A program made the translations under genes and the position numbers. Below, piece after piece: positions 3,091 through 4,731 of a stretch of DNA of 64,000 nt (positions are counted from its first letter, which is position 1; each line of letters opens with the position of its first letter). Source of the DNA: an uncultured Desulfovibrio sp. (GTDB taxonomy: Bacteria > Desulfobacterota > Desulfovibrionia > Desulfovibrionales > Desulfovibrionaceae); the NCBI RefSeq assembly GCF_944324525.1, contig NZ_CALUWS010000004.1:33339-97338 (forward strand), in the 5' to 3' direction. Below the pieces are notes generated by a model that was given only the letters and a program-made list of their open reading frames with translations, did no database searches and was not told the DNA's origin.

Positions 3091-4731
3091 ATGTATCACA
3101 CGCAAGAAGCCGTTTCATACGGGACGCACTTTGGTGAAGGACATCCAGACTCTCTCTGCCGCCGGATGCCACCGATATATGTAACCCTATGGAATCCCTT
3201 CGCATGCCCCAGTCTCTCTCTCTCTCTCTCTCTCTCTCTCTCTCTTAGCATAGCTCTGCTGCTGGCCGGGCAAAGCCTGCTAGTGCAGAGTCTTACCCTT
3301 GGTCAGTGGACAGGATTTATCATACCCGATCTGGCCGGTGCTGCATTGCTCGTATTGCTTTGCGGGCCGCGTTTGCTGCGTGTCTGGGTAGTGCTTCAGG
3401 GATTGTTTTCTCTCTTTGCCCTGAGCTATCATACCTCGCTCGGCATGCCGCCCACGCTGGCGGATCTGGTCAATGGCACGTCCTATGCCATTGATATAGG
3501 GCTGCCCTCACTGCTCCACTATGTAGACACGGCTGCTCTGAGCTGGCTTGTGCCCTGCTGTCTGCTTCTGTTCCTGCTCTGCGGGAAAAAGCCGCGCTAC
3601 GGCTTCCGCGTTCGCCGCTGGAGCCTTGTTCCTCTCGTGGCGCTCGTAGCGGCTTTTGTCCTTAGCGTGGGCAAGCAGCCGCTCTCAGATTTTTTCCCGG
3701 AAAATTATATCCACCGGACGGACAAAAAATATTTCGCCGCACCGGGGCGGCGCTCGCTGAAATACCGTGGCTACCTGACCAGCTTCAGTCTGGAACTGGG
3801 TACTGGGGCCGCCTGGACCTTTCGCCACCTGCAACCCACGCCCTGTTCGGCTGACGGTATCGAGGCCATCCCCGTACCGCCCGCTTCCTCACAAATAGCC
3901 CTCGTCCAAGTGGAAAGCCTGGATTGGGGTCTGCTGGACAGGGAGGTGGAGGGCGAGCAGGTCATGCCCTTCCTGCACAGCCTGCTGCCGCATGCCATCG
4001 TCCTGCGACTGGACGGTACCAAGAAGCTTGGCTCGGCCAATTCGGACTTTGAGATCTTCAATGGGCAGGAAGCTTCCTCCAGCGTGGTGCATTACGAATT
4101 TTTGACCAGCTACCCGCGCAGCCTGTTTCGCTGCCTGAGCGCTGATCGCAGGCGGATCATGGCCTTCTGCGGAGTTCCCGCGGACTACATGAACCTCGCG
4201 GCAGCGTATCCGCTCCTGGGCATTACGGAGTACCGCGCGCTGGAACGCCTCAAAGCCGACGGGCTTTCGCCGCTCCCCGTCTGGTGGGCGGGCGTCGTCC
4301 GGGACGAAGATCTGCTGGCCTATGCGGCGAAGCATCTGCCGGAGGGGCCTTTCGTGCAGTTCATCATCACCATGAACATGCATCTGCCCGAACATGTCGC
4401 CTTGCTGAAGGACCCTCCGCTGTTTACCGGAGCCCCCGACAGCGCCTTCCTCACCACAGCCCGCACCACGGATGACGCCCTGCGCGACTATGTCGCGGCC
4501 CTGCCCGACGGTGCGCGGCTCATCCTCTGGGGGGATCACCGCTCTTACGGACGCAGCACGGGGGACGTTCCCTTTCTCATCTATACCAAGGGGCAAAGCC
4601 ATCCCTTCGACGGCAGCGGGCTGGACGGCCTGACCCGCTGCAAGATGCACCATTATTTGCGCAAGCTCTTTGCCTGCCCGGCTCCGCCGGAGGAGACCGC
4701 GCCGGACGGACAGGCCGTCTGTCCCCGCTGA
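3091..4731 (+). CDS. Phase-variable membrane sulfatase / phosphoglycerol-transferase-like protein (alkaline phosphatase superfamily)
   Basis: Probably a membrane enzyme that transfers a phospho-alcohol such as phosphoglycerol to a surface or periplasmic glycan, as LtaS and OpgB do; the substrate is inference. The 546-residue protein starts with several membrane helices (to about residue 200). A catalytic domain follows with VQVESLD, GSANSDFEIFNG (likely Ser/Thr nucleophile region), MNMHLPEH and WGDHRS, the order of metal and catalytic motifs in LtaS/sulfatase folds. A (TC)16 tract near the N-terminus codes for Ser-Leu repeats inside the first helix. With 16 repeats the frame is open from ATG 3091 or 3166. 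The start is uncertain: 3091 has a GGGGGGTGG stretch before it, 3166 has no clear ribosome site. Codon use is less GC-biased than in the neighbours, suggesting acquisition. It splits the ahbC-hemB pair. Confidence 0.75.
   Translation: MYHTQEAVSYGTHFGEGHPDSLCRRMPPIYVTLWNPFACPSLSLSLSLSLSLSIALLLAGQSLLVQSLTLGQWTGFIIPDLAGAALLVLLCGPRLLRVWVVLQGLFSLFALSYHTSLGMPPTLADLVNGTSYAIDIGLPSLLHYVDTAALSWLVPCCLLLFLLCGKKPRYGFRVRRWSLVPLVALVAAFVLSVGKQPLSDFFPENYIHRTDKKYFAAPGRRSLKYRGYLTSFSLELGTGAAWTFRHLQPTPCSADGIEAIPVPPASSQIALVQVESLDWGLLDREVEGEQVMPFLHSLLPHAIVLRLDGTKKLGSANSDFEIFNGQEASSSVVHYEFLTSYPRSLFRCLSADRRRIMAFCGVPADYMNLAAAYPLLGITEYRALERLKADGLSPLPVWWAGVVRDEDLLAYAAKHLPEGPFVQFIITMNMHLPEHVALLKDPPLFTGAPDSAFLTTARTTDDALRDYVAALPDGARLILWGDHRSYGRSTGDVPFLIYTKGQSHPFDGSGLDGLTRCKMHHYLRKLFACPAPPEETAPDGQAVCPR
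3213..3244 (+). repeat. (TC)16 simple sequence repeat, contingency-locus tract
   Basis: Sixteen uninterrupted TC dinucleotides, followed by TTAGCATAG. In the two alternative frames this trailing sequence gives TAG at 3246 or TAG at 3251. A change of one or two repeats therefore truncates translation at once, unless an alternative upstream ATG (3189 or 3204) is used. Tracts of this kind change length by slipped-strand mispairing. Confidence 0.92.

Follow-up and report, generated by a model that had tools for sequence, protein, structure and literature searches.

A tract of 16 TC units in the 5′ coding region of a gene for a membrane enzyme predicted to modify the envelope is probably a slipped-strand contingency switch. 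The tract lies in a 64,000-nt stretch (hereafter the window) of the genome of an uncultured Desulfovibrio species. Replication slippage would add or remove TC units, and from ATG 3204 the gene would be read through at 14, 17 or 20 units, whereas at other unit numbers translation would end immediately after the tract, at TAG 3246 or TAG 3251. The Ser-Leu repeat would form the hydrophobic core of the first helix, so that a change of length should be tolerable in the ON state. The locus appears to be one member of a set of TC/GA tracts that spans the genus, and we regard that set, whose clearest targets are behaviour genes, as the more interesting result. In what follows G000 is the source genome, other G numbers are relatives (79 genus genomes including G000) and L numbers are fetched stretches.

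Table 1 Features at the tract locus (window positions)
Feature	Position	Strand	Remark
Radical SAM/SPASM gene	1855..3036	+	Upstream neighbour; 3′ end at the same place in G008
Hairpin, 9 bp, G+C-rich, then UUUU	3056..3081	+	Terminator-like; between upstream gene and tract gene
Open frame as assembled	3091..4731	+	Membrane-anchored alkaline-phosphatase-superfamily protein, LtaS/phosphoglycerol-transferase-like
ATG	3091..3093	+	In frame at 16 units; 9 nt behind hairpin/U-run; about 38-41 residues beyond homologs
ATG	3166..3168	+	In frame at 16 units; no Shine-Dalgarno match; codons behind it non-coding in character
ATG	3189..3191	+	Second ATG; shares frame of 3204
ATG	3204..3206	+	Best fit to homologs' distance from the conserved part; in frame at 14/17/20 units, out at assembled 16
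(TC)16 + T tract	3213..3245	+	Ser-Leu in every frame; part of first membrane helix by hydropathy
Two TAG stops (3246-3248 and 3251-3253)	3246..3253	+	Stops of the two other frames, behind tract
hemB ORF (delta-aminolevulinic acid dehydratase)	4797..5858	+	Downstream neighbour

The original prediction had described 16 TC units without interruption (3213-3244), Ser-Leu coding in any frame, a place in the first membrane helix and stops in both wrong frames directly behind the repeat, and all of this was borne out, with one further T at 3245. Tandem Repeats Finder listed the tract as the only period-2 array in the window; separately, an 84-bp tandem repeat (2.6 copies, 93% matches) lies at 63185-63403. 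The tract is an uninterrupted short repeat far beyond chance length, as the source genome has ten TC tracts of at least seven units and no (TG)8. We recomputed all ATG, GTG and TTG starts in 3037-3212 for 10-24 TC units. With 10, 13, 16, 19 or 22 units (1 mod 3) only ATG 3091 and ATG 3166 open into the gene, with 11, 14, 17, 20 or 23 (2 mod 3) only ATG 3189 and ATG 3204 do so, and with 12, 15, 18, 21 or 24 (0 mod 3) no start reads into it, in exact agreement with the frame table predicted for 16, 17 and 15 units; the same holds for 13/19, 14/20 and 18 units. On the evidence of this table and the flanking stops, the tract is placed such that unit number would alter expression, by reading frame only, which supports the view that the repeat is positioned to switch by length, among early codons that form a membrane helix.

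A comparison with the starts of homologs had been proposed as a check, and it fits ATG 3204 but not ATG 3166 or ATG 3091. Counted from the first ATG, GTG or TTG of each open frame, four homologs have 17-20 residues to a shared alanine (G008, 20; G064 and G061, 19 each; G010, 17). The window gene has 21 residues from ATG 3204 at 17 units and 19 at 14 units, compared with 26 from ATG 3189, 33 from ATG 3166 and 58 from ATG 3091. A MAFFT alignment placed the homologs' first residues nearer the 3166 start than the 3204 start, because a gap must open over the repeat, and residue counts were therefore relied on instead. The coding score per codon is 0.009 in 3091-3165 and -0.154 in 3166-3210, against 0.14-0.20 in the gene, and the 19-residue hydropathy maximum of the helix is 1.95 at 17 units and 1.83 at 14 units (1.58-1.91 in homologs). 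The start scan found no Shine-Dalgarno match at any start of the window gene, ATG 3204 included; GGAA stands 9 nt ahead of that codon. ATG 3204 is likely the native start. Since the homolog distances match it rather than ATG 3166 or ATG 3091, 14, 17 or 20 units are likely the ON state and the assembled 16-unit copy is probably OFF or gives at most weak expression from the poor starts farther upstream. At 16 units ATG 3204 leads into a 14-residue peptide that ends at TAG 3246.

The encoded protein resembles lipoteichoic acid synthases more closely than sulfatases. It had been called sulfatase-like, and the family kinship stands, the nearest homolog (G008) passing the Sulfatase cut-off with 45.5 bits, but the window protein itself scores only 19.2 bits against PF00884, under the curated cut-off of 25. 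E275, S315, H431, D482 and H483 are invariant in the window protein and four homologs, and the catalytic Thr of LtaS aligns with Ser 315. The residues of an LtaS-type catalytic domain (metal-binding Glu, Thr/Ser, Asp-His and His) are all present, with Ser in place of Thr. A profile of five sequences matched lipoteichoic acid synthase (2w5r, 2w5q; E 2.6e-8), LTA primase (4uop) and GacH (5wcx). The protein thus shares with LtaS and GacH the Glu, the nucleophile position, the His and the Asp-His pair, and differs in the Ser opposite the catalytic Thr and in its membrane part, which is unmatched (the LtaS match spans profile positions 230-453 of 508). Among solved structures, lipoteichoic acid synthases and GacH match best, which disfavours sulfatase as the precise activity; our best guess is transfer of a phosphoglycerol-type group to an envelope molecule, which we consider more probable than cleavage of a sulfate ester.

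Homologs of the tract gene occur in six of the 79 genus genomes, G000 counted, and none of the five other homolog loci carries a tract in the reading frame. With no relative carrying a tract in this gene, slippage at 3213-3244 is something we infer from sequence, as we do the ON start, expression and the enzyme's substrate. The nearest homolog, that of G008 (56% identity), occupies the same gene junction behind the end of the radical SAM gene, without a tract; it begins MRLPASLSGSVVSLLLTLTMAGQSLL and is preceded by AAAGGA. The G064 and G061 homologs are near-identical to each other and have a TTG start behind AGGAGG, and that of G010 starts with ATG. An in-frame tract in the G010 homolog was considered and rejected, since some 500 nt separate its (TC)32 from the open frame downstream, and the repeat has a transposase-like ORF (named by eye) next to it. 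The G021 homolog (G021:C1:393918-394966; L004, L006) is broken in two by a frameshift close to an A7 run. In G065 a 57-nt GA tract directly follows an ATG in the gene of another, distinct membrane protein of the Sulfatase family. A search of named genomes with the single window protein gave no match, and one with the alignment gave two relatives. Between the upstream gene and the tract gene, the hairpin region (3040-3090) folds with -34.6 kcal/mol (z -3.0), and the hairpin is absent from the list of a stricter scan. No promoter-like site was found near the tract in a scan that covers sigma-70-type sites only.

Tracts of this kind recur across the genus. Anchored TC tracts of at least eight units are carried by 31 of the 79 genomes (168 in all; 26 in the single-contig genome G065), and in a wider set (TC)8 is present in 14 of 37 genus genomes, the source genome included, against one of 24 from other genera of the order. 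(TG)8 is present in 12 of the 79; (TG)n tracts of at least eight units were seen in G036, G009, G088, G102 and other relatives, among them genomes of 1.4-2.0 Mb. In G000 nine of the ten tracts belong to the tract gene, a pair of flagellins, two GGDEF proteins (one tract at C2:84695-84730), a chemoreceptor (C36:2085-2122), a Sulfotransfer_1 protein and two genes that lack a Pfam match and are, by eye, sulfotransferase- or SGNH-like with a tail domain behind the tract; the tenth is intergenic. Most of the ten adjoin genes of motility, signalling or, apparently, surface glycans. TC on the coding strand reads as Ser-Leu, in membrane or signal helices (the tract gene, a GGDEF protein on C13 and a TolC-like protein, so named by eye, in G025), and GA reads as Arg-Glu, at domain joints. 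Exceptions exist, such as a mid-gene TC tract in G007: homologous genes with such a tract were seen at L103:3713-5411 (G007; no NCBIfam match), L149 and L194, out of frame by coding score in G007 and G076. GA tracts that join a catalytic domain to a PDVA-type repeat tail were observed at L050:4232-5621, L051:4957-6546 and L088:3670-6734, in genes that are sulfotransferase- or SGNH-like by eye; at these joints the C-terminal tail produced would depend on unit number.

Placement relative to genes is strongly skewed. Among the 154 tracts in fetched stretches (155 before removal of one duplicated in overlapping stretches), 83 fall within 300 nt 5′ of a coding core, compared with 9.8% of random positions, 20 inside a coding core (75% of random positions) and 51 without an assigned gene (15%). 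The binomial p of 1e-42 is a rough guide only, as near-identical relatives make the counts partly dependent. Genes were called with a codon-usage script trained on the window rather than a standard gene finder, and the coding core begins at a score-based start, so that a tract within a genuine N-terminus, like that of the window gene, is counted as 5′; the tract regions of some genomes (for example G095, G004 and G020) are left out of the counts.

Target genes were assigned to 103 of the 154 tracts (102 distinct genes), and the 93 that remained after nine of more than 800 residues were left unscanned were compared by Pfam scan with 102 genes of at most 800 residues drawn at random from the 436 other genes of the same stretches. 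The chemoreceptor signalling domain was found in 18 of the 93 targets against four of the 102 background genes, GGDEF in 15 and Flagellin_N in 12, the latter two at one or fewer each in the background since neither is among the 25 families listed for it. Methyltransf_11 stood at four against two and phage integrase at three against two, MBOAT and Sulfatase were each found in two targets, and glycosyltransferase family 2 was not enriched (two against three), so that any bias towards glycan genes rests on single cases. A cluster of chemoreceptors comprises 14 tract genes, 13 of G065 (12 with GA and one with TC on the coding strand) and one of G000. The 13 chemoreceptor-type genes of G065:C1 (L106, L107, L108, L111, L112, L114, L116, L117), several of them closely spaced, are each preceded by a separate tract of 18-40 units, some 45-285 nt ahead of the coding core. 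Twelve fetched tract loci lie upstream of flagellin genes. Two such genes of G000 (C26:36606-36640, C71:1198-1227; L048, L055) share, some 200 nt ahead of the gene, a leader of the form ATGCGAAGTTCTCCCCC...(TC)n...TGCTGATATAA that has 17 and 15 units, respectively, and a near-identical leader occurs at two G097 loci. Ahead of GGDEF genes, at L170, L199, L052, L163 and L128, the tract is spanned by a small leader ORF (M...SLSLSL). Its end falls, depending on unit number and start, either at most 13 nt from the start codon or roughly 100 nt short of that codon; such a leader could possibly act as a switch through translational coupling.

Tract length varies between close relatives. In all six close genome pairs, at four loci (one a trio), it differs: 33/35, 36/38, 46/60, 36/43, 43/38 and 30/24 nt. 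The members of a pair are different species rather than isolates of one, and their flanks share 94-99.7% identity across some 300 nt to either side; these flanks are not free of indels, with 0-3 gap positions a side in the aligned parts. Two of the six pairs involve a GGDEF tract of G000 itself and one its flagellin tract. Odd differences arise from a changed base at the tract edge. The 33/35 pair also shows one additional A a few nucleotides past the tract, and this base brings back into frame a leader ORF ending at the start codon of a GGDEF gene. Less similar pairs are sometimes equal in length (for example 28/28 and 34/34 in flagellin tracts; 32/32 and 17/17 within one genome). Of two homologous methyltransferase tracts, that of G074 preserves the frame and that of G063 leads to a stop five codons farther on. 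Mismatch repair would slow slippage at dinucleotides. Its loss as the origin of the tracts is unsupported, as MutS1 and MutL are strong in most genomes (above cut-off in 71 and 75 of 79, respectively) and in G000. Tract carriers without a strong match are G030 (MutS) and G066 and G076 (MutL); several tract-free genomes likewise lack one, and many of these genomes are incomplete.

The original prediction had envisaged two ON frames with graded expression, after lic1A of Haemophilus influenzae, whose tetranucleotide repeat is preceded by several ATGs in more than one frame. The tract gene also has ATGs in more than one frame before its repeat, which is a dinucleotide rather than a tetranucleotide, and 16 units would give 12 or 37 extra N-terminal residues (from ATG 3166 or ATG 3091), 17 units a shorter protein (from ATG 3189 or ATG 3204) and 15 units none. 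Both start sets do give the full gene and, with no Shine-Dalgarno match anywhere, weak initiation at several of them is possible. However, the 17-20 residues of the four homologs stand against the 33 and 58 from ATG 3166 and ATG 3091, 3091-3210 is non-coding in character in that frame and a hairpin/U-run lies just ahead of ATG 3091. These points argue for a single native start, weaken the case for graded expression and make the two-frame arrangement unlikely; the switch probably has one ON frame.

We consider it quite improbable that the tract is an inconsequential neutral microsatellite in a decaying or little-used gene. The rarity of the gene in the genus (6/79), the frameshift that splits the G021 homolog and the out-of-frame state of the assembled copy from its likely start would all be expected of such a gene, but the gene body keeps a coding signal of 79 log-odds units over 394 codons, its catalytic residues are conserved, both other frames are stopped close behind the tract, and tracts across the genus show a strong preference for sites 5′ of coding sequence and favour a few functional classes. 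Least probable, and in our judgement very unlikely, is regulation at the transcript level, in which the tract would alter promoter spacing or mRNA folding from within an untranslated leader and translation would start behind it, for example at GTG 3283. Many sister tracts of flagellins and chemoreceptors do lie 45-300 nt upstream of the coding core and this GTG is 37 nt behind the tract, yet a start there would remove the first helix present in four homologs, and the sigma-70-type scan offered no promoter-like site nearby. A contingency switch within the coding region remains the preferred reading.

Most known cases of repeat-driven phase variation come from host-adapted bacteria such as Helicobacter, Haemophilus, Neisseria and Campylobacter, and Helicobacter pylori belongs to another phylum than Desulfovibrio. 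The titles and abstract beginnings listed from the open-licence literature contained no account of repeat-mediated phase variation in Desulfovibrio; the available part of one article mentions phase variation only in passing (PMC12579266). The closest anatomy among the sources consulted is that of H. pylori oipA (hopH), in which CT repeats occupy the early coding sequence for the hydrophobic signal region, the reading frame sets on or off, and off states run into an early stop (PMC10564699). The tract gene similarly has its dinucleotide repeats in a hydrophobic 5′ coding part, but it encodes a membrane enzyme with a first helix rather than an outer membrane protein with a signal peptide, and MutS and MutL are present in its genome. 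In Helicobacter canadensis, homopolymer switches include C-terminal sequence switching, according to the part of the report available (PMC2823697). Some Desulfovibrio sister tracts at domain joints would likewise change the C-terminal part, through dinucleotide GA (Arg-Glu) linkers rather than homopolymers. For H. bizzozeronii, the available text describes 43 contingency genes with mostly mononucleotide repeats, including at least one chemoreceptor and two flagellar genes, and its authors tie the repeats to missing mismatch repair (PMC3234257).

Tentatively, and with more doubt than attaches to the single locus, we suggest that Desulfovibrio species may run a large dinucleotide phasome whose main targets would be behaviour genes (chemoreceptors, diguanylate cyclases and flagellin) beside envelope-modifying enzymes, and not surface antigens. 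Clone-mates would then differ at random in sensing, c-di-GMP output and envelope with mismatch repair genes present, and some loci would act through a leader ORF whose stop is set beside or far from the start codon by unit number. For annotation, an out-of-frame tract gene may be a switch in its off state and not a pseudogene. If true, such a genus-wide system in genomes with mismatch repair genes would leave Desulfovibrio clones mixed in motility, chemotaxis, c-di-GMP and envelope state.
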